A stretch of DNA of 64,000 bases from Magnetococcales bacterium (lineage in GTDB: Bacteria; Pseudomonadota; Magnetococcia; Magnetococcales; Magnetaquicoccaceae): NCBI GenBank assembly GCA_015231755.1, contig JADGAZ010000015.1:1-64000 (forward strand), read 5' to 3'. Below the pieces are notes generated by a model. It made no database searches. It was not told where the DNA came from and worked only from the letters and a program-made list of their open reading frames with translations. This document shows, one piece after another, positions 6,651-17,897 of this stretch. A program made the position numbers and the translations under genes. Each line of letters begins with the position of its first letter. Position 1 is the first letter of the stretch.

Positions 6651-7940
6651 TCAGGACAAAACCATGGCGCGGGTCATGCTGTCGGGTTCCACGACCCGCA
6701 GCAGCCCCAATCCTTCCAGTTTCCGGGCCAATTCGGACAACTCCCAGACCGGTTTTTTAATGATTCCGGCGATGGCGAGCAGATCATTGGTACCATTCGC
6801 GTAGGCGAGCAGATTCCGCAACGCCGCCATGGAAAAAACGCCACGCTTGATGTTCAAGGTGGGATACAAGCCGTATTGGCCCAATTGGGGTTCTCCGAGG
6901 CAGGTGGCGCGATAGACCCGGTTCATCTCCGCCACTTCGATGCAGCGCTGCACATACCTAAATCCCCCGGCTAGCCCCTTGGGGGTGACCAGATCGAGAT
7001 TGTCCAAAGAGGTGTGGTATTCCGGATAGGTGCCGTACTTGCTGCGACACACGGAGACCACAGGCAGATCCACGCCGGGGCTGCAATATTGCCGTTCGTC
7101 GCTGCCCCGTTCCAAAAACGAGTAAACCTGATGCCTTCCTTCCAGATGGGGCAGCACCTGGTTGACAATCCGATCCGCGAGCGTATTGGCATAGGGGGTG
7201 GACACGCAGGAATACAGGCGCTCGTCCCCGAGGCAGGAGAGATTGAAACCGGCGATCACCCGTTCTTTGAGTGTATCCAGATGTTGACTCAGATAGGCGA
7301 GGGAACCGATCGTCTCGGGAATGAAAAGCAACCGATACGAATAACGGCGCGGTTCCGACATCAGCCAGCGTCCGATCCAGGTCAGGATCACCGGACCGGA
7401 CAGCTCATTGTTGGCCATGGAAGGATGACAAATATCGGTCGAGAGCAAAATTTCCTGTCGAGATTCCCCCGGCAGCAGGCATTCGCCATAGGTCAGGTAT
7501 CCATCGGACAGATCGCTGTCGATCACCACCCGATACTGTCCGGGTTGCAGTTTGAGCCTTTCCCGATGCGCCAAGCAAAAGCCCCATCGTTCCGCATAGT
7601 AGGAGGTCACATACGGAATGGCCTCGGGTTGCTCTTCGAGGCTGTACAGGTGATCCTGCAACGCTTCCAGCGAAAACCAGGCATCCACCGGAACGGAATA
7701 TCCGACCACGTGCAGATTGTTCTGTCGAAAGTCCACGATCCGCCGCCCATCGGCGGTGGCGATGAAGGCGTCGCGGATGTTCCACTCCCTGGGGATGGTC
7801 CAGTCGAACACTTTGGTTCCGGTCGGCAGTTCGGTCTGCCGGAGCGGAAGGTGATCCGCGATGATTCCAAGGGTCTCGCGGACGCCCTGACCGGTAAGGC
7901 TGCGACAGATTGGAAATAATTTTTGCAACAGGTCGTACAT
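6651..7940 (-). CDS. DUF4910/DUF2172 aminopeptidase-like protein of a glycan locus
   Basis: A 429-aa soluble protein with the M28-peptidase-like fold signature of the DUF4910/DUF2172 family. It shows LSTDICHPSMANNELSGP, a later LERGSDERQYCSPGVDLPV, and a C-terminal YPEYHTSLDN. The His, Asp/Asn, Glu and His positions are those expected to bind zinc in M28 enzymes. Members often sit in polysaccharide or nonulosonate clusters and their substrate is not established. A winged-helix-like C-terminus (about 370-425) follows the catalytic domain. It lies 41 bp downstream of the methyltransferase on the same strand, so the two are probably cotranscribed. Amidase or deacylase activity on a sugar substituent is possible but only inferred. 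Confidence 0.8.
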   Translation of the reverse strand: MYDLLQKLFPICRSLTGQGVRETLGIIADHLPLRQTELPTGTKVFDWTIPREWNIRDAFIATADGRRIVDFRQNNLHVVGYSVPVDAWFSLEALQDHLYSLEEQPEAIPYVTSYYAERWGFCLAHRERLKLQPGQYRVVIDSDLSDGYLTYGECLLPGESRQEILLSTDICHPSMANNELSGPVILTWIGRWLMSEPRRYSYRLLFIPETIGSLAYLSQHLDTLKERVIAGFNLSCLGDERLYSCVSTPYANTLADRIVNQVLPHLEGRHQVYSFLERGSDERQYCSPGVDLPVVSVCRSKYGTYPEYHTSLDNLDLVTPKGLAGGFRYVQRCIEVAEMNRVYRATCLGEPQLGQYGLYPTLNIKRGVFSMAALRNLLAYANGTNDLLAIAGIIKKPVWELSELARKLEGLGLLRVVEPDSMTRAMVLS

Positions 7941-7981: not shown

Positions 7982-8884
7982 TTATCCTCCCGCCTTGACG
8001 GCCTCCACGACAAACGCGGAGCACAGAAAATAGCCACGCCAGTTGGATGATTCGTGTTCCAGGGCCATGGCCTCTTCGCGGAACAGGCCCGGATTGTCGG
8101 CTGCCAGATAGGGCATGGCCGGGTGATAATGGTACCAACGCAATTGGATATCGATGAAGCCATGCCGTTTGAACTGTTCCACCACCTCGAAAGGGTTGTG
8201 GAACCTGGAAAGAATCTGATCGTATCCGGGGGCGTTTGAGCCTTCGACCTGTGTCCGCAGCGGTGGCATATCCATGCGCAGGCGGGATTCGAGTTCCTGG
8301 GCGACTTTTTGTTTGAGTTCTCCGGAGACGCCCGCGAGCAGATCGTTCAAGATGAACTCGTGGGTCAGTCGGTTGAGGGTGAACAGGGAAAACAGTTTGT
8401 TGCGGAATTCGACAAACACGCTTCCGCCCGGACGAATCATGGTGGCCATGTTTTCCAGCACGTTGTCATCATTGGCGACGTGGGGCATCACGCCCATGGC
8501 CATGAGTCCATCGAACAGTCCTTCCCGCAGAAAGTGGGCATAGGTCACCGGATCCTGAATATCGCCATAGCCGATGTGATCCGGATTCAGGTGATTTTCC
8601 CGCATGCGTTCCTTGGATTGTGCGACCATCTGCTCGGAGATGTCGAAGCCCCACACTTCCATTCCCGCCTTTGCCAGGGTTGCCAGGGGTGTTCCTTCCC
8701 CGACGCCCACTTCGATCACCCGTTTGAGTCCCTTGTTGATAAAAGCATTCAACAATAACTGTAAACGAAAATAATTGGCCGGATAACGCGCCTGGGGATC
8801 ATGCAGAAAATCACGATTATACCTTGCCTGATACGCGGATGCAGTGGCATCATAATGCTGAGTAACCAATTGTGTTGGTTGCAT
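7982..8884 (-). CDS. class I SAM-dependent methyltransferase
   Basis: A 300-aa protein with SAM-binding motif I VIEVGVGEGTPLATLA (about residue 56), an acidic GFDISEQM motif II, and a later GLMAMGVMPHVAND segment. The size and N-terminal HYDATASAYQARY match methyltransferases of surface-sugar or small-molecule clusters. The target is unknown; an O- or C-methylation of a glycan or nonulosonate is likely from its neighbours. AAAGGA lies 7-8 bases before the ATG. It precedes the DUF4910 gene and is divergent from the NeuB-like gene. Confidence 0.82.
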   Translation of the reverse strand: MQPTQLVTQHYDATASAYQARYNRDFLHDPQARYPANYFRLQLLLNAFINKGLKRVIEVGVGEGTPLATLAKAGMEVWGFDISEQMVAQSKERMRENHLNPDHIGYGDIQDPVTYAHFLREGLFDGLMAMGVMPHVANDDNVLENMATMIRPGGSVFVEFRNKLFSLFTLNRLTHEFILNDLLAGVSGELKQKVAQELESRLRMDMPPLRTQVEGSNAPGYDQILSRFHNPFEVVEQFKRHGFIDIQLRWYHYHPAMPYLAADNPGLFREEAMALEHESSNWRGYFLCSAFVVEAVKAGG

Positions 8885-9029: not shown

Positions 9030-9716
9030 ATGATGTTCATCGCGGAAATCGGCATGAATCACAACGGTCACTTCGCGTTGGCCGGAGAGTTGATCCGTCA
9101 GGCGCAAATGGCGGGGGCGGATGTGGTCAAGATGCAGTTGGGCTGGCGGGACGGGGAGGGGGAGATCAACCGGTTGACTCCGGAGGTGATTGCCCAGTTG
9201 TATCGCCTTGCGGATTATTATGGCATCGAGTTGTTGTTTTCGGTCATCCGTCCGGACGCCTGGGAAACCTTGAAGCCGTTTCATCCCCGGCGGATCAAGA
9301 TCGCCTCCCGCACGGTCAACGACTATCCGGAGTTGGTGCGTGAGGTGATTGCCACGGGTTTGCCGGTGATCATTTCTTTGGGCATGTGGCAAGGGGAGGG
9401 ATTGCCTTTCGGGCAGCCGGCCAATGTGGAGTATTTATGGTGTCGTTCCAGTTATCCGGCTCACGCCTGGGATTTGACCGCGTTGCCCAAATCGTTCATC
9501 GGGACGCCTTATGCGGGCTACAGTGATCACTCTTTGGGGATTGAGGTTCCCTTGCTTGCCATTGCGCGGGGGGCGCGCATCATCGAGAAACATTTCACTT
9601 TGGACAAGTCCGACACCACCATTCGGGATCATGTGTTGAGTGCCACTCCGGAGGAGTTTGCACGGATGGTGGTTTTGGGACGGGGCATGCGACGCGCGAT
9701 CCAGGCCGGCGTATAA
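9030..9716 (+). CDS. short NeuB-family (N-acetylneuraminate synthase-like) protein
   Basis: A 228-aa protein matching only the TIM-barrel half of NeuB-type synthases, which condense phosphoenolpyruvate with an amino sugar to give nonulosonic acids. It has FIAEIGMNHNG at the N-terminus, VKMQLGW where canonical enzymes have VKFQ, GYSDHSLGIEVPLLA, and GARIIEKHFTLDKS. The C-terminal SAF (antifreeze-like) domain of about 80 residues that normally completes the active site is absent, and a stop follows directly. The ATG at 9030 (or 9033) is preferred over upstream starts because FIAEIG is the usual N-terminus and GAGG lies upstream. It may act alone, with a separate SAF partner, or as a truncated homologue with another role. 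Confidence 0.82.
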   Translation: MMFIAEIGMNHNGHFALAGELIRQAQMAGADVVKMQLGWRDGEGEINRLTPEVIAQLYRLADYYGIELLFSVIRPDAWETLKPFHPRRIKIASRTVNDYPELVREVIATGLPVIISLGMWQGEGLPFGQPANVEYLWCRSSYPAHAWDLTALPKSFIGTPYAGYSDHSLGIEVPLLAIARGARIIEKHFTLDKSDTTIRDHVLSATPEEFARMVVLGRGMRRAIQAGV

Positions 9717-9723
9717 TCGACCC

Positions 9724-9781
9724 ATTGAAGAAAAGAGGGGGTCTGGGAGATTCATCTACCAGACCCCCTCTTTTCTTCAAT
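9724..9781. terminator. perfect 23-bp inverted repeat, bidirectional terminator (repeat copy 2)
   Basis: Arms 9724-9746 and 9759-9781 are exact reverse complements of 23 bp, ending in TTTTCTTC in both directions, with a 12-base loop. It lies between two convergent genes and includes the TGA stop of the glycosyltransferase (9777-9779). It is the most symmetrical member of the hairpin family. Confidence 0.9.
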
Positions 9782-10466
9782 GGTTTGGAATCGATCCGTC
9801 CATCTCGCGCAACTTCTGATCGTAAACCGCCAGATCCTCATGATTGTGCGTGCGATTGGTGGCGTGATGACGGTATTTGTAAAACGGAAATTCCAATCGC
9901 CCAATGCGATACTTCTCCTCGAAACGCCGCCGCAACTCATGCCCCTCCCGCATCCGAAACTCCGGATTGTACAACCCGATGTCAAACAAACACTCCTTGC
10001 GAAACATGATCCCGCAAGCAATCTGATCCTCCATGCAATTGAAACGGCCCAACGCGTTTTCCAGATGATCCACCTTCACATAATCCACCGCCACCGCCTG
10101 ATACTGACGGTTGACATCCAGAAACAATTTCATGATCTGCAAACAACTGCGATTCAAATAATCATCCGCATCCACCCGCACCACATACCGCCCCCTGGCC
10201 TGACGAATGGCATTGTTGAGCGCAACCGGCAACCCCTGGTTGATCTCATGCACCAACACGCGCAAATTCCGCACAATGGCCAGATTGCCCAACACCTCCT
10301 GGGTGTGATCCCCACTGCCGTCATCCACCACTAAAATCTCGAAAGTCCCCGGGGAAAGCCCCTCTTGATGATTGATGCTGCGCACACACCGCTCCACCCA
10401 GCGCCCCTGGTTGTAACAGGCGACAATCACCGAAATGTCAGGCAGATAAGAGGGATCCTTGCTCAC
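9777..10466 (-). CDS. family 2 glycosyltransferase
   Basis: A 229-aa GT-A-fold transferase. It has [20 protein letters not shown] at the N-terminus, [12 protein letters not shown], and [12 protein letters not shown], which provides the DxD metal/nucleotide-sugar motif. It should add one sugar to the glycan made by this locus; the donor and acceptor are unknown. The GTG at 10466 is chosen because GGGAGG lies just upstream and it overlaps the stop of the preceding fusion gene by 4 bp (GTGA); a TTG at 10484 is the longer alternative. Its last codons lie inside the hairpin repeat. Confidence 0.9.
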
Positions 10467-12223
10467 ACGCCGCCTCCCAGACAATCCCGCACCGCCGCCA
10501 ACGCATACCGGGCCGCCTTCAACTCGGAATCCCGCGTCAACCCGGCGATGTGCGGCGTGATGACCAGATGATCGTTCCCATTGGCGTAACGAATCAACCG
10601 ATGCCGCCGCTTGTCGGACAAGAATTCATCGGAAATCACATCCAGTCCCGCCGCGGCCAGATGACCATTGGCCAAATGAACCAGTAACGCCTCCTCGTCA
10701 ATGATCTCCCCACGGGAGACATTGATGAAAATCGCCCCCGGCTTCATGGCGGCAAACCAGGCGTCATTCACCATGCCCGCCGTCGTGGCGTCCAGATGCA
10801 CCGCGATCAACACGATGTCCGCCACAGCCAACACCGCCTCGTGACTGGCGCACGGCTCCACGCCGGGAGCGTCGATGGTCTTGTACGGATCGAAGGCCAC
10901 CACCCGCATGCCGAACGGCTGGGCATACCGGGCCACATTGCCCCCGATGCGTCCAAATCCGATGATGCCCAAGGTGCGACCTTGAAACTCCACCGCCCGC
11001 AATTCATCCTCGATGTCGCGCCAATACCCCTGCTTGACCCGCTCCACCGCCTGAGGCAACTTGCGGACCGTGGCCATGATCAACGCCCAGGTGAACTCCG
11101 AAGAGGCGAAAATGGAATGAACGAAATCACTGTCCTTCAACCGGGAGACCACCACGCCATGCGCGGCACACCAGTCGAGATCAATATGGTTGGAACCCGT
11201 GGAAGGCGTGGCCAAAACCCGCAACCGACCCCGGGAAGCCTCCAGCAATCCCGCGTCGATGGTGTAGGTCGGACACGGCGAACAGATCCAGCCATCCACC
11301 TCCGGCAACAAACCCGCCACCTCGTCACGGCTGGCCCCGTGGGCCAAAATCACATCGGCGAAAGCCTGCAACTCCTCCCGGATCTCCGGCAAAAAATGGA
11401 TCGGCGTGGTCACCAGCACCACAGGCCGTCCGCCGTGCAGCAACCGCTCCACCCCGGATTCCAGCACCGGCACCGGACGGTTGTTGCAAAACCCGTGACG
11501 CATCATGCACTCGGCCAACGGCAGATCCATGCGCTCGTCGATGTTGATGGAACGCTCCGGCTCCATGAGATAGGGACGACTGTCCGCCCCGTGCCGACTC
11601 CCCTCCTCCACGATCACCCGCCGGGTCATGGAATAAATGGCCCCATTGCGGATGTACGACGGGGGCTTCAGATCCTGACGCCGGGAACCGATGGCCGGTT
11701 CCGGATACTCTTGGGTGAAATCCACAATCTGATCATCGACGATGCGCTTCAAACGGATCGGATGTTTCTCCCCGGTATCCACCATGCTGATGACCGAATC
11801 CGCCCCGGTATCCAACAATTTCCGCAACGCCCCGTCGATGTCCCGCCCATCCCGCAACGGCGCCACACACGGCAGTTCCACCACCAGATCGTATTCGATC
11901 CCGAGGATCTTTTCGGTCTCCAACACCGCGAAACGCAACGAAGGCGCGGAAGCCACCAGATCCCCGGACAACTCCGCCGGTCGCAAAAACGGCGTCATGG
12001 CCCCGTAACGCCGGGCAATGGCGGCATAAACCGGACTGTCGGTGGAAACCACCACATGGGTCACCATCCGGGAATCCAAAGCCGCCCGGATGGAATAGGC
12101 CATCAGGGGATGCCCCAGAAGGGGATGAATGTTCTTGTCGGGAATCCCCTTGGAACCGCTTCTGGCCTGAATGACCGCCAGAACCTTGGGCCCAGTGGAG
12201 TCGGAAATGCCGGAATCGGACAT
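10463..12223 (-). CDS. fusion: CMP-nonulosonate (NeuA-like) cytidylyltransferase + D-2-hydroxyacid dehydrogenase
   Basis: A single 586-aa frame with two complete-looking enzymes. Residues about 14-240 match acylneuraminate cytidylyltransferases: [16 protein letters not shown] (nucleotide-binding), [22 protein letters not shown], and [15 protein letters not shown]. Residues about 255-586 match NAD-dependent D-2-hydroxyacid dehydrogenases of the SerA type: [15 protein letters not shown] (GxGxxG), [14 protein letters not shown] with the catalytic Arg, and [14 protein letters not shown] with the catalytic His. Cytidylyltransferases activate an alpha-keto acid sugar with CTP. The dehydrogenase half would reduce or oxidise a 2-keto or 2-hydroxy acid, perhaps one linked to this sugar. 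The ATG at 12223 has AGGTG upstream; a GTG at 12235 is also possible. I do not recall this domain pair as standard. Confidence 0.9.
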
Positions 12224-12368: not shown

Positions 12369-13625
12369 TCAAATCGTCGCGACGGATCCCGGCTCTTCAC
12401 GATAGGCCACGAAAAAATTCAATCCCACTCCGTTGGCGCCCCGAAACAGATGCCGCGTGGCGGATAAAAAAGACGCCACCCGCTCCACATCCCCGGTGGC
12501 CAACACGTTGAACAGCTCCAGAACCTCCCCCAACAACGCCTCGGGCTGGTCCTCCTGGGGAAAGGTTCCCAATCCGGCCCGCACCCCCTCCAGCAACCGC
12601 TCCGACGCCGCCGCCAACGACCCCGGATCCACCCGGCTGGAAGCGGTGACATCCGCCGTCTGCCGAACCAGATCCTCCAGCAATGCGCTCAAACGCCGCG
12701 ACCGCTCCAGCCACACCTCACCACTGCGGGCGTCGTCCACCCGATGGGTCAGCCATCGCAACTCCGCCCCCCCCGCCGCCGCCGGATCCATGGCCAACTG
12801 GTGCATCACCCCCTTGATGGGAGGATCCACCAGTTCCGCCGGCATCACCGGCGGCCAGGCCGAATAGACCCGCAAACCGCTCCTGGCAAACCACGCCATC
12901 ACCTCGCCCGTACACGGACAGTCGATCTTGGGATTGACATAGGTATCCTGAATGATCGCCGCCCGGGAACGCCGCCCGAAACGCTCCGCCCGGTCGATGT
13001 TCTCCCGGAACAACCGCTCGGCCAAAGCGGGGATCTCCGCCTCCTCCCGGGCCAGGGAACGGATGACCAGTCGCTGCAAATCCCGCTGAAACATCCCGGC
13101 GCGGGTGCAGATGGCCAGGATCAGAAATCCACCCGGCTTCAGACAGGCTGCCAAACGCTCAAACCCTGCCTCCTTGGCCCCGGTATGATGCAACACCCCC
13201 TCGCAGGCCACGATATCGAACCGTTCTTCACCCGGATCATAGTCGAACAATGACCGCTCCACGAACCGATACCGGGCCTCCCGAGGCGCACGCAGGGCGA
13301 AAATCTTTCGCGCCCGCTCCAAAGCCAAAGGATTCATCTCCACCAGGGTGCAATCCGCCCCCCAGCGGCTGTAGAAAATGGCATGCTCCCCGGTCCCGCA
13401 CCCCAGATCCAACAGACTGGCTCCGCGAAACAGCCGTGGCGGCAATTTCAGATAGTCCCGGAACAACAACACCCGTCGCCGTTCCTCTTCCCGCAGACGC
13501 TCATCCGACTCCAGAAAGCGTGTCGAAGGATTTTCCTCCTGGTAAACCCGCAACACCTCCCGCTCCACGCTCAGACGCTGCGCCTCCTCCACCCGCGACC
13601 CCTCTTGCGGCAGCCGATCAGCCAT
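12369..13625 (-). CDS. class I SAM-dependent methyltransferase with long C-terminal region
   Basis: A 418-aa protein. Residues about 65-200 are a SAM-binding domain with LLDLGCGTGEHAIFY (motif I), VEMNPLALERA (motif II) and VACEGVLHHTG (motif IV region). The C-terminal half, about 200 residues, contains a CPCTGEVMAWF segment and a helical tail; I do not recognise it. The ATG at 13625 has AAGGTGG upstream and overlaps the carbamoyltransferase stop by 8 bp, which suggests coupled translation and a joint role in decorating the same glycan. Confidence 0.85.
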   Translation of the reverse strand: MADRLPQEGSRVEEAQRLSVEREVLRVYQEENPSTRFLESDERLREEERRRVLLFRDYLKLPPRLFRGASLLDLGCGTGEHAIFYSRWGADCTLVEMNPLALERARKIFALRAPREARYRFVERSLFDYDPGEERFDIVACEGVLHHTGAKEAGFERLAACLKPGGFLILAICTRAGMFQRDLQRLVIRSLAREEAEIPALAERLFRENIDRAERFGRRSRAAIIQDTYVNPKIDCPCTGEVMAWFARSGLRVYSAWPPVMPAELVDPPIKGVMHQLAMDPAAAGGAELRWLTHRVDDARSGEVWLERSRRLSALLEDLVRQTADVTASSRVDPGSLAAASERLLEGVRAGLGTFPQEDQPEALLGEVLELFNVLATGDVERVASFLSATRHLFRGANGVGLNFFVAYREEPGSVATI

Positions 13626-15429
13626 GACAGCCACCTTGAGAAGAGTCCCGGGCCGGCTTGCTCACCAGCCACGAACCGATCCACACATGGGAAAGCCCGG
13701 AACGAAGCCAAGTGCTGACCGCATCCTCCGGTCCGGCCACCATCGGCTCCCCGTGCAGATTGAAAGAGGTGTTCAACACCGTGCCCACGCCGGTGCGCTC
13801 CTGGAAGGCCGAAATCAAGGCATGATAGTCGGGATTCACCGCCCGGCTCACCACATGGGGACGGGAGGTGTGATCATACGGATGCAAACCGCTGATCATC
13901 TCCTTGCGCCCCAGAGGGGTGGAATCGAAGGCCAGGGTCATGTAGCGGGCATCCAGCCCCTTGGGATTGATGAAATAATCGTCGGCCCGCTCCTCCAACA
14001 CGCTGGAGGCGAACGGCATCCAGAAATCCCGCTGCTTGATGATTTCGTTGATCTGACGCACCACGTGGGGATTGCGGGGATCCGCCAGGATCGAGCGGTT
14101 GCCCAAAGCCCGGGGACCGAACTCCCAACGACCGGCGCAACGGGCCACCACCTCTCCTTGGGCCAAAAGCTCCGCCACCTCTCCGGCTCCGGCCTGCCGC
14201 ACCCGGCTCCCCTCGGGAATGCCGCCGGTCTCGATGGCCCGCAACGCCTGCTGGTCGGTGAAATCCTCCCCCAGATACGGGGTGGTGAAAGGCCGCAAAT
14301 GCTCCACCTGCTCCGCTTTCACCGTGGGATGGGCGGCGGCGGCGATGCAGGCCGCGCCCACGGCAAGCGACTCGTCCCCGGCTCCCGGCGGCACGAACAA
14401 AGAGGTGACATCCGGCAATTCCCAGATCACCTTGTTGGCCTTGATGTTCATGGCCACCCCCCCGGACATCACCACATCCCCGATTCCGGTGGCTCCCACC
14501 CCGTTTTGCACCCATCGGGACAACAACTCCTCGGTGCGCCGCTGCACACCCCAGGCGATCCCGTCGAAACGCACCCCCTCCAGCCGCTCCTTGAACCAGA
14601 AGAAATGGTCCGCAGGCTGCGTGGTGTACGAAAATCCCAACCCGTGATTTTGCAGGGTTCCGGCATAGACCTCATAGGCCTGCCGCCCGTATTTTTCGTT
14701 GGCGTAAGGGGCCAGTCCCATGGTCTTGAAGGCGTGCTCGAATTGCTTCATGCCCAGCAGCAGCGTGGCGTAACGGTAGATCCGCCCGATGTTGCACTTG
14801 GCGTCCCGATGCAAAAGCCGCAAGGCTCCCCGGTCGCGCCCCTCCCAGACCGTGCCGTTGGCCCCATCCCCGCCCCCGTCCGTGGTGAACACCAACAGAT
14901 CCCGATCCCGGTTCGGATGGGTCATGTAGGCGTACCAGGCGTGACAGGTGTGGTGATCGTGAACGCTGATGCGCTCCGCGGGCAGGCCGCTGTAAGCTTG
15001 GAGATGCTTCAGCCGGGCCTTGAGCATGCCTTCGGCGTCGTCTTCATGGGCGATGAGGCTTTCGTCGTAGATCCGGCGGGCCGGATCGATCCGATCCGCG
15101 AACACCTCCAGATAAGAAGGGGTGCCGGTGCCATCGAGACGGGGTTTCCAGTAGTGGGTCTGCTCCCGCCAGAAATCGGCGATGGAAAAGTTCTCCCGGG
15201 GCACGAAAAAATATTTCGGCGGCAGTCGCAAGGTGGAAAGGGCGATGTGATCCACATCCCCCATGGTCAGTCCCGCCAGAGCCAGCACCCGCTCCACCGA
15301 CTGAAACGGAAATCCCGAACGGGTGGAAAAGCGTGTGGGCCGATCCTCGCTCATGGCCGCCACCAGCCGTCCGTCCACCAGCAAAGCCGCACTGGCCCCA
15401 TGCCCGTCGTGAATGCCCAAAATGACCAT
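13618..15429 (-). CDS. NodU/CmcH-family carbamoyltransferase
   Basis: A 603-aa enzyme that transfers a carbamoyl group from carbamoyl phosphate to a hydroxyl, as on Nod factors or antibiotics. It starts MVILGIHDGHGASAAL (N-terminal YgjD-like fold), contains the metal-site motif VHDHHTCHAWYAY, VFTTDGGGDGANGT, and VMSGGVAMN, and ends with the carbamoyl-AMP domain (FGPRALGNRSILADPRN, LNTSFNLHGEPMV). The ATG at 15429 is chosen because GGAG lies upstream and the family motif begins there; the frame is open to 15477. It is first in the methyltransferase operon. Confidence 0.93.
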   Translation of the reverse strand: MVILGIHDGHGASAALLVDGRLVAAMSEDRPTRFSTRSGFPFQSVERVLALAGLTMGDVDHIALSTLRLPPKYFFVPRENFSIADFWREQTHYWKPRLDGTGTPSYLEVFADRIDPARRIYDESLIAHEDDAEGMLKARLKHLQAYSGLPAERISVHDHHTCHAWYAYMTHPNRDRDLLVFTTDGGGDGANGTVWEGRDRGALRLLHRDAKCNIGRIYRYATLLLGMKQFEHAFKTMGLAPYANEKYGRQAYEVYAGTLQNHGLGFSYTTQPADHFFWFKERLEGVRFDGIAWGVQRRTEELLSRWVQNGVGATGIGDVVMSGGVAMNIKANKVIWELPDVTSLFVPPGAGDESLAVGAACIAAAAHPTVKAEQVEHLRPFTTPYLGEDFTDQQALRAIETGGIPEGSRVRQAGAGEVAELLAQGEVVARCAGRWEFGPRALGNRSILADPRNPHVVRQINEIIKQRDFWMPFASSVLEERADDYFINPKGLDARYMTLAFDSTPLGRKEMISGLHPYDHTSRPHVVSRAVNPDYHALISAFQERTGVGTVLNTSFNLHGEPMVAGPEDAVSTWLRSGLSHVWIGSWLVSKPARDSSQGGCHG

Positions 15430-15530
15430 AATCGCTCCCGCGCGCGCCTTTTCAAAAGGACAAATCCGATCCGCCAACCCGCCGCCATCCCACCCACGAC
15501 GCGCCGATTCTTAAGAAAAATGAAAGATAG

Positions 15531-15560: not shown

Positions 15561-15789
15561 TCCATTTCGGCCTGGGAACACCGGAATCCACAAGAACTCA
15601 CCCCTTTTTTGACACCACTCCCCCCTCTTGCCGAAGCAAACCCGGGACCACCGCAACGCTGACCACCACGGAAAACGTGCTTGACAATGCCTGAGAAAAA
15701 TGGCGTCATGATCGATGTTGACCAAACGGTTTCAGCCGGATGGCATCCATCGCCCTCGAATTCATCACATTCCAGAGCCACACCCTCTC
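15561..15789. other. divergent intergenic region upstream of wzm
   Basis: Gap between the carbamoyltransferase and wzm. A TTGACA at 15682 could be a -35 box for the exporter genes, but no good -10 box follows. No gene is seen; frames here are short and unsupported. Confidence 0.4.
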
Positions 15790-16659
15790 ATGACGCCCGA
15801 TCCGGATACCATCCCCCTCGCCGTGCGCACCTATTCGGCCCAATCGAGAATCCGCCATCCGGATGGCCTGTTCCTCGCCATGGTTCTGGATCTGTGGCGC
15901 TCCCGGGAACTGGCCTGGAGACTGTTCATCCGGGAAATCAGTCAACGCTACCGCCAATCGGTGCTTGGCATCCTGTGGGTGCTGGTGCCGCCGCTGGCCA
16001 CCACCGCCATTTTCGTGGTACTCAACGCCCGCAAGATCCTCAACCTCGAACCCACCGAAATCCCCTATCCGGTCTACGTGCTGCTGGGCACGCTGCTTTG
16101 GCAGATCTTCTCCGAAAGCGTGCTGGCACCCCTCAAGGCCTTCGAGGGATGCGTGCCCATCATGATCAAGATCAACATGCCCCGGGAAGCCCCCATCCTC
16201 TCCGGCATGGCCCAGGTGCTCTTTCTGGCCGGCGTGCAACTGCTCCCGGCCCTGGGGGTGATGGTGTGGTCCGGAGTGGTTTTCACCCCCGCCATCCTGC
16301 TCGCCCCCTTCGCCATCCTGATGCTGGTGCTGCTCGGCACCGCCATCGGACTGTTCCTGGTTCCCCTCGGGGGACTCTACCGGGATATCGGCGAAGGCAG
16401 CGCCATGGCCCTCAAACTGGCCTTCTTCCTCACCCCCGTGGTCTATCCGCCCCCCCAGGAGTGGCCCTGGTCCCTGCTGGTCGCCTTGAACCCGGTGGTC
16501 CCCCTCCTCCAAGGAGCCCGGGATCTCATGTCCATCGGCACCATGCACGACCCGGCAGCCTTCTGGATTACCTGCGGCGGTACCCTCGTCGCCCTGCTGG
16601 CGGGCCTGCTCTTCTATCGCCTCGCCACCCCGCTGGTCCTGGAACGGATGGGAGCTTGA
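15790..16659 (+). CDS. wzm: ABC-2 type polysaccharide exporter permease (Wzm-like)
   Basis: A 289-aa inner-membrane protein with about six hydrophobic segments. The ABC-2 hallmark near the N-terminus (LAWRLFIREISQRYRQSVLG) is followed by ILWVLVPPLATTAIFVV. It should form the channel that moves an undecaprenyl-linked glycan across the inner membrane together with the ATPase just downstream. The start is uncertain: ATG 15790 gives a short hydrophilic N-terminus and ATG 15715 a longer one. The gap to the ATPase is 8 bp. Confidence 0.87.
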   Translation: MTPDPDTIPLAVRTYSAQSRIRHPDGLFLAMVLDLWRSRELAWRLFIREISQRYRQSVLGILWVLVPPLATTAIFVVLNARKILNLEPTEIPYPVYVLLGTLLWQIFSESVLAPLKAFEGCVPIMIKINMPREAPILSGMAQVLFLAGVQLLPALGVMVWSGVVFTPAILLAPFAILMLVLLGTAIGLFLVPLGGLYRDIGEGSAMALKLAFFLTPVVYPPPQEWPWSLLVALNPVVPLLQGARDLMSIGTMHDPAAFWITCGGTLVALLAGLLFYRLATPLVLERMGA

Positions 16660-16667
16660 CATCTCAC

Positions 16668-17897
16668 GTGTCCAACGACCTGCTCATCGACGTGGAGTCC
16701 ATCTCCAAAAAATTCTGCCGCAGCCTCAAACGCTCCTTGTGGTACGGCATCCACGACATCTCCCGGGAACTCACAGGACAAGATCGCTTCGCCACCTTGC
16801 GCAAGGATGAGTTCTGGGCCATCCGGGATTTGAGCCTCCAGGTGAAACGGGGCGACATCCTGGGCATCATCGGCTCCAACGGCTCGGGCAAAACCACCCT
16901 GCTGCGGCTGATCAACGGCCTGATCATGCCCGATTCCGGCCAGGTCACCATCCGGGGTCGGGTCGGTGCCCTCATTCAGCTCGGAGCCGGCTTCAGCCCG
17001 GTACTCAGCGGACGGGAAAACATCCTCATCAACGCCGCCGTCCTGGGCATCTCCAAACGCGAACTCGACTTGTGCCTCGATGAGATCATCGACTTCGCCA
17101 ATCTGGGGGAGTTCCTCGACGCCCCGGTGCAAAGCTACAGCTCCGGCATGCGCGCCCGGCTGGGATTCGCCGTCGCCATCCACATGCGACCGGATATCCT
17201 GCTGGTGGACGAGGTGCTCTCCGTGGGGGATCTGGTGTTCCGCAACAAGGCCCTCGACCGCATGGACAAACTGGCCCACTCCGGCGTGGCGGTGATTTTC
17301 GTCTCCCACAACCTCGGACAGGTGGACCGACTCTGCTCCCGGGTGCTTTATCTGCAAAAGGGACAAACCGTGGCCCTGGGCCCCACCGCCGAGGTGATCT
17401 CCCGCTACGTGGGGGAAACCACCGCCCTCGACACCACCTTGCGCCACCATCCCGGCACCGAACACTCCTTCGTGGTGCGCTCGGTCAACCTGCGCGACGT
17501 CAACGATCAGCCGCTCCAACACCTGATCTGCGGAGAGTCCCTCCGGATCTCCCTGACCCTCGACGTGCGCCAACCCCTGAAATCCCCGATGTTCTGTTTC
17601 ATGTGGGAACCCGAAGGACGCTCCATCATCCTGGCCTATACCCACCAGCCCCGGGAGGCGGAAGCGCGTCCCTCCCTGACTCCGGGTCAACACGTGATCG
17701 AAATCTCAATTCCCAAATTGCCCTTTCTTCCCGGACGCTATACACTGCGTTTATCGGTCTCCGGCACGATCGAGTCACAACTCCTGGGCAAGGTCGATCA
17801 TCTGGCCACCCTGAACGTACTCCCCCGGCCCGGACAGTACATCATCACCAACGAAGCCGGATTCCTGGAACTGGACGCCAATTGGCGTTTTTCGTGA
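16668..17897 (+). CDS. wzt: ABC-type polysaccharide exporter ATPase with C-terminal binding domain (Wzt-like)
   Basis: A 409-aa ATPase. The nucleotide-binding domain (about 1-245) has Walker A GSNGSGKTT, signature YSSGMRARLGFAVAI and Walker B ILLVDEVLSVGD. About 165 further residues resemble the C-terminal beta-sandwich of Wzt proteins, which recognises the modified non-reducing end of an O-polysaccharide before export. That fits the methyl- and carbamoyltransferases in the same locus. The start is a GTG at 16668 right after the wzm stop. The frame stays open far upstream, but that part shadows wzm. Confidence 0.92.
   Translation: MSNDLLIDVESISKKFCRSLKRSLWYGIHDISRELTGQDRFATLRKDEFWAIRDLSLQVKRGDILGIIGSNGSGKTTLLRLINGLIMPDSGQVTIRGRVGALIQLGAGFSPVLSGRENILINAAVLGISKRELDLCLDEIIDFANLGEFLDAPVQSYSSGMRARLGFAVAIHMRPDILLVDEVLSVGDLVFRNKALDRMDKLAHSGVAVIFVSHNLGQVDRLCSRVLYLQKGQTVALGPTAEVISRYVGETTALDTTLRHHPGTEHSFVVRSVNLRDVNDQPLQHLICGESLRISLTLDVRQPLKSPMFCFMWEPEGRSIILAYTHQPREAEARPSLTPGQHVIEISIPKLPFLPGRYTLRLSVSGTIESQLLGKVDHLATLNVLPRPGQYIITNEAGFLELDANWRFS

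Follow-up and report, generated by a model that had tools for sequence, protein, structure and literature searches.

The window analyzed here, a 64,000-nucleotide stretch of a Magnetococcales MAG (GenBank assembly GCA_015231755.1, contig JADGAZ010000015.1, positions 1 to 64,000), contains an open reading frame in which the initial annotation recognized both a CMP-nonulosonate synthetase and a D-2-hydroxyacid dehydrogenase (HDH). This raises the question of whether the fusion is genuine and, if so, what a dehydrogenase of this kind is doing beside the CMP activation of an acid sugar. The fusion gene, its two halves, and the genes around it are as follows.

6651..7940, minus strand: DUF4910/DUF2172/HTH_47 protein, with a homologue immediately before the fusion in genome G042 (L043:10441-11769)
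7982..8884, minus strand: SAM methyltransferase adjoining the cassette (Pfam)
9033..9716, plus strand: short NeuB-like synthase without a SAF domain (PF03102 without PF08666)
9777..10466, minus strand: GT2 glycosyltransferase, cassette type A (Pfam; same order in 11 viral type A cassettes)
10463..12223, minus strand: fusion gene, CMP-nonulosonate synthetase plus HDH (586 aa and stop; in 9 genomes; model pLDDT 91.6)
10472..11428, minus strand: HDH half, residues 266-584 (Pfam; alignment A2; Foldseek to PHGDH structures)
11489..12187, minus strand: CMP-synthetase half, residues 13-245 (CTP_transf_3; phmmer to CMP-Neu5Ac synthetases 1qwj and 1eyr)
12369..13634, minus strand: SAM methyltransferase upstream of the fusion (Pfam)
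13618..15477, minus strand: NodU-type carbamoyltransferase, with a homologue ahead of the unfused cassette in family f14 too
15715..16659, plus strand: ABC-2 polysaccharide exporter permease, Wzm-like (PF01061)
16668..17897, plus strand: ABC ATPase, Wzt-like (start codon deduced from the ORF); found next to the unfused cassettes of G010 and G012 as well

The frame lies on the minus strand, an amendment to its first description; it opens with an ATG at 12223, its final codon extends to 10466, and a TGA stop occupies 10463-10465, overlapping the GTG start of the GT2 gene by 4 bases. Within this single frame of 586 residues, Pfam detected CTP_transf_3 at residues 16-200 (70.2 bits, cut-off 22.6), 2-Hacid_dh at 269-364 (43 bits), and 2-Hacid_dh_C at 380-560 (165 bits), the last two likewise above their cut-offs. 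An AlphaFold2 model of the whole protein was confident in both halves and in the linker (mean pLDDT 91.6, pTM 0.84). We recovered the whole fusion from 9 of the 48 genomes of the class, on independent contigs and in two families: G000, G011, G014, G015, and G017 belong to the window's genus, and G041, G042, G043, and G045 to a second family, f14. Identity to the window's fusion was 99, 85, 84, and 82% within the genus and 49-52% in the second family. Eight further genomes carry the fusion uninterrupted, which rules out the failures against which the initial annotation had cautioned: an overlooked stop codon, a frameshift around 11500, or an accident of a single strain. An assembly artefact or a chance fusion of neighbors, for which we found no supporting point, is thus virtually excluded. 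Overall, we regard the fusion as real, conserved, and functionally meaningful, and as a new form of what is probably a CMP-ulosonate module.

The annotation had also seen a NeuA-type cytidylyltransferase and a SerA-type NAD dehydrogenase, each with its main motifs, and in the window's protein the Pfam domains and invariant residues bear out two real enzyme halves. The CMP half aligns over its full length with the CMP-Neu5Ac synthetases 1qwj and 1eyr (phmmer), and its motifs comprise a 12-residue stretch at 20-31, SRRQD at 181-185, and INID at 231-234. We compared it with the signature ARxGSKxxxxKN, RRQ, and two Asp residues (D209/D211 of the N. meningitidis enzyme). The first two elements are present and the second Asp is kept, while the first Asp is Asn throughout the subclade. 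It shares with the CMP-nonulosonate synthetases (NeuA/PseF/CMAS; 1qwj, 1eyr) the fold family, the CTP-binding signature, and the RRQ motif, but differs in the first Asp of DID, in a 10-residue second motif that is not of the QPTSPLR type, in a score below the cut-off of the PseF equivalog TIGR03584 (126.2 versus 205.7 bits), and in its C-terminal partner, a D-2-hydroxyacid dehydrogenase. Some CMP-nonulosonate synthetases do carry fused C-terminal partners, among them E. coli NeuA, with an esterase domain, and vertebrate CMAS. As the annotation had supposed, no standard bifunctional enzyme with the present pair was found.

The HDH half carries PF00389 and PF02826 together with R516, E545, H574, a GxGxxG motif at 433-438, and D456, as expected of the D-2-hydroxyacid dehydrogenase family; the catalytic R/E/H and the NAD motif are invariant in alignment A2. 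We take Arg516, Glu545, and His574 to be catalytic and Asp456 to belong to the NAD motif, from what is known of the family. In sequence and in fold (Foldseek) it matches structures of PHGDH and of glyoxylate/hydroxypyruvate reductase, and it has both Pfam domains, the catalytic residues, the NAD motif, and the fold in common with PGDH, GRHPR, and D-LDH. Unlike these, it forms a clade of its own, carries an STGxNHID motif, has longer loops after that motif and before the catalytic His, has no ACT domain, and is the partner of a CMP synthetase. A scan of the phylum with P0001 was swamped by generic SerA, and profile A1, built for the HDH subfamily, resolved it: across 398 genomes of the phylum, members scored 452-519 bits and generic SerA-type proteins at most 208, with a gap from 208 to 452. 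The possibility that this half is an ordinary SerA-type enzyme, converting 3-phosphoglycerate to phosphohydroxypyruvate from an incidental position, draws on the fact that PGDH (TIGR01327) is its best NCBIfam model. The score, however, is 174 bits against a cut-off of 454, the subfamily is separated from generic SerA in the tree (SH-aLRT 99), and the same genome has a longer SerA-like frame at C33 that groups with generic SerA. On its score and its separate clade we rejected the SerA assignment, which we regard as very improbable.

A further argument against SerA, and evidence that the two halves belong together, came from gene neighborhoods. When viral sequences were searched with profile A1, a CMP-synthetase-like ORF lay within 4 kb of the HDH gene at 78 of 80 loci, all of them uncultivated contigs and some of them near-duplicates. 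Most of these loci also had a NeuB-like gene and a small GT2. The dominant orders were NeuB-CMP-HDH-GT2 (type A), CMP-HDH-NeuB-GT2 (type B), and HDH-small CMP-like-NeuB-GT2 (type D), with viral cassettes at L147-L226 and L241-L283; the fusion keeps the type A order of CMP, HDH, and GT2. In the reverse test, for which the query was alignment A4 of type A and B CMP synthetases, HDH was present at all 37 loci scoring at least 280 bits (30 distinct sequences), and at only 1 of 35 loci scoring 120-200 bits (26 distinct sequences), 29 of which had NeuB. No CMP or NeuB neighbor was seen at 15 generic SerA-type loci, most of them scanned for about 1.5 kb on each side, and 40 other bacterial CMP-synthetase loci showed no HDH in the flanks that were retrieved. 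This reciprocal pairing, together with the controls, indicates that a single subclade of CMP synthetases is specifically associated with a single HDH subfamily.

Trees of the HDH and CMP halves agree, with the topology ((fusion, viral type A),(unfused Magnetococcales type B, viral type B)), and viral type D also groups with type B in the HDH tree. The fusions are monophyletic in both (SH-aLRT 100 for HDH, 96 for CMP), so that a single fusion event suffices. The fusion derives from an old, conserved pair of adjacent genes in a four-gene cassette, and the functional link between the halves that the annotation had suspected turns out to be far better supported than could have been known from the window. 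Elsewhere, 2 of 193 Omnitrophota genomes were positive, and one locus (L238) has NeuB, CMP, and HDH in a row. Dozens of marine viruses, and some bacteria, encode the two enzymes as separate neighboring genes, which suggests that a sugar pathway using them is widespread. Since a distant, shorter 2-hydroxyacid dehydrogenase (motif KWIHLSKTG) fills the HDH slot at five viral loci (L272, L275, L276, L280, L281), an enzyme of the 2-hydroxyacid dehydrogenase type seems to be required there.

The CMP/HDH pair was absent from the deposited phage genomes searched, where the single related CMP synthetase came from a record labelled Moritella viscosa; in PHROGs, HDH and GT2 each matched just one family, weakly, and neither family has a known function. 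Type D cassettes encode compact CMP-synthetase-like proteins of 180 aa (AIIPAKxDSxRL; L148, L160, L171, L188, and similar), which may be minimal cytidylyltransferases. The type A GT2 keeps DAD, and the type B GT2 has SAH in place of the usual GT-A DxD (L049:4578-5927, L184:3795-4433, L188:8277-8912), which could fit a metal-independent CMP-sugar donor. On plasmids of two Alphaproteobacteria, Leisingera and Acuticoccus (L100, L101), a CMP synthetase gene adjoins a PGDH-like gene whose product is a more distant HDH, and these pairs lie beside SIS/phosphatase or HpcH aldolase/HAD genes.

We also examined how fused and unfused cassettes are distributed within the Magnetococcales. In the window's genus, five genomes (G008, G010, G012, G013, G016) have separate, adjacent CMP and HDH genes; in family f6 (G025, G026, G028, G029) the two genes are about 0.6-1.1 kb apart, with a methyltransferase gene between them in G025. 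None of 22 Magnetococcales genomes had both a type A fusion cassette (9 genomes) and a type B cassette (13 genomes), many of these genomes being incomplete MAGs. Both kinds of cassette occupy one locus beside mutM in the window's genus, and the Wzm/Wzt exporter adjoins the cassette in several genomes (the window, L036, and L037 for type A; L045-L048 for type B). This arrangement looks like an exchange of alleles for a surface glycan. The DUF4910/DUF2172/HTH_47 protein adjoins the fusion cassette in both families.

The initial annotation had described a fusion of two enzymes, and here the two fusion-bearing families differ. Neither half has decayed in the window's genus, where purifying selection on each is strong (dN/dS 0.08-0.11 for CMP and 0.08-0.19 for HDH). 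In the four f14 fusions (G041, G042, G043, G045; L040-L043), ARxGSKxxxxKN, RRQD, and xID are gone from the CMP half while HDH is conserved, so not every fusion is bifunctional. The f14 stem branch is fourfold longer for CMP than for HDH (1.51 versus 0.39), and within the family dN/dS is roughly 2-3 times higher (0.16-0.27 versus 0.08-0.11), with synonymous sites near saturation. This decay would also suit a CMP half that is nowhere an enzyme any more and has become a scaffold for HDH or its regulator, but we consider that improbable: the window's genus retains every motif, with dN/dS near 0.1, and the window's genome has no close separate copy, the nearest other CMP synthetase being 37% identical. 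Each of the four f14 fusion genomes, for its part, encodes an intact type B CMP synthetase separately, on a different contig. Most simply, CMP activation in f14 has passed to this second enzyme, which would imply that type A and type B cassettes work on the same sugar or on similar ones. A decayed CMP half beside an intact separate synthetase thus amounts to a natural experiment on the purpose of the fusion.

The start of the NeuB-like gene was moved from 8973 to the ATG at 9033, at the Met where its homologues begin. The product keeps the NeuB core and scores far below TIGR03569 (126 versus 400 bits) and TIGR03586 (101 versus 340 bits); with so short a NeuB, lacking SAF and well under the NeuB/PseI cut-offs, calling the sugar a nonulosonate is uncertain. 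No hydrolysing 2-epimerase (PF02350) is encoded near the cassette, and a conventional run of epimerase (PF02350), NeuB, and CMP synthetase, a further nonulosonate pathway of the same genome, is found on another contig at G000 contig C2:47649-50541. Taken together, the missing SAF domain, the lack of an adjoining 2-epimerase, and the conventional run on C2 indicate that the cassette is a second, different system.

The fusion, its conservation, its obligate pairing, its intact active-site motifs, its purifying selection, and the co-inheritance of its halves are all shown by the data; what follows on the sugar, on the reactions and their order, and on the redox direction is our proposal. We think it probable that the fusion unites two co-inherited enzymes of a cassette that makes a CMP-activated 2-keto-acid sugar for a surface glycan, and that HDH performs a core redox reaction in it. 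In such a pathway a 2-keto-3-deoxy acid sugar would arise when the NeuB-like enzyme condenses PEP and an aldose; the CMP half would activate this sugar with CTP, and GT2 and the Wzm/Wzt exporter would place it on the surface glycan. HDH would carry out an NAD(H)-linked interconversion of a 2-hydroxy and a 2-keto acid as a core step next to CMP activation, most likely to build or tailor the acid sugar; it may, as the annotation suggested, supply or tune the CMP half's own substrate. D-2-hydroxyacid dehydrogenases need a carboxylate next to the reacting carbon. Because action at C2 would remove the anomeric center that CMP needs, HDH more likely acts on a precursor, on an acyl group attached to the sugar, or, if the sugar is a dicarboxylic acid, on its far end. 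Direct reduction at C2 was rejected for this chemical reason, as was a route from glyoxylate and PEP, which gives no ring. The HpcH-type aldolases beside the CMP synthetase and dehydrogenase genes of Acuticoccus might, speculatively, fit a dicarboxylic sugar, and an aldolase-PGDH-sialyltransferase run in C. coli (PMC3928612) would fit one too, though it is suggestive only.

HDH might instead make a D-2-hydroxy acid of the glycerate or lactate type with which the CMP-activated sugar is then acylated. This would agree with its being closest to PGDH and glyoxylate/hydroxypyruvate reductase structures, and hydroxyacyl nonulosonates do exist: A. baumannii has Leg and Pse bearing 3-hydroxybutanoyl groups (PMC9676051). 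We regard this as unlikely, given that the cassette has no recurring acyl ligase or acyltransferase and that the tight coupling is to a CMP synthetase rather than an acyltransferase.

Returning to the core redox step, we compared the fusion with known systems. In a Vibrio Pse cluster, an SpsF-type cytidylyltransferase is fused to an aldo-keto reductase (PMC7371886), which likewise joins a cytidylyltransferase to a redox enzyme within a nonulosonate cluster, but the cytidylyltransferase type and the redox family are both different. The ela/aci remodelling modules of A. baumannii, in which the putative oxidoreductase ElaA works with CMP-nonulosonate genes, resemble the fusion to that extent, but start from a full legionaminate pathway (PMC9676051). 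In genome G196 a CMP synthetase is fused in frame to an NAD(P) enzyme (L113:6951-8534); the cytidylyltransferase superfamily is the same, but the partner is a short-chain dehydrogenase, not HDH. The serA of E. coli K15 was set aside as a precedent, being merely a flanking marker. Within the open literature searched, we found no description of a D-2-hydroxyacid dehydrogenase or SerA in a nonulosonate-type pathway, or of the cassette in phages.

Tentatively, and at somewhat less than even odds, we suggest an undescribed pathway to a CMP-activated ulosonic, possibly ulosaric (two-carboxylate), acid, with HDH as its defining enzyme and the small GT2 as its transferase. Many marine viruses would carry it in the form of a four-gene cassette, and Magnetococcales would exchange it as alternative alleles of a locus for surface glycans. 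A dehydrogenase family for which no association with nonulosonates was found would then be the predicted core enzyme of such a pathway, and a single protein of 586 aa allows both predicted activities to be tested at once. To judge from its occurrence in numerous uncultivated viral contigs, the cassette may let viruses synthesize or modify an unusual acidic sugar, on their hosts or on themselves.
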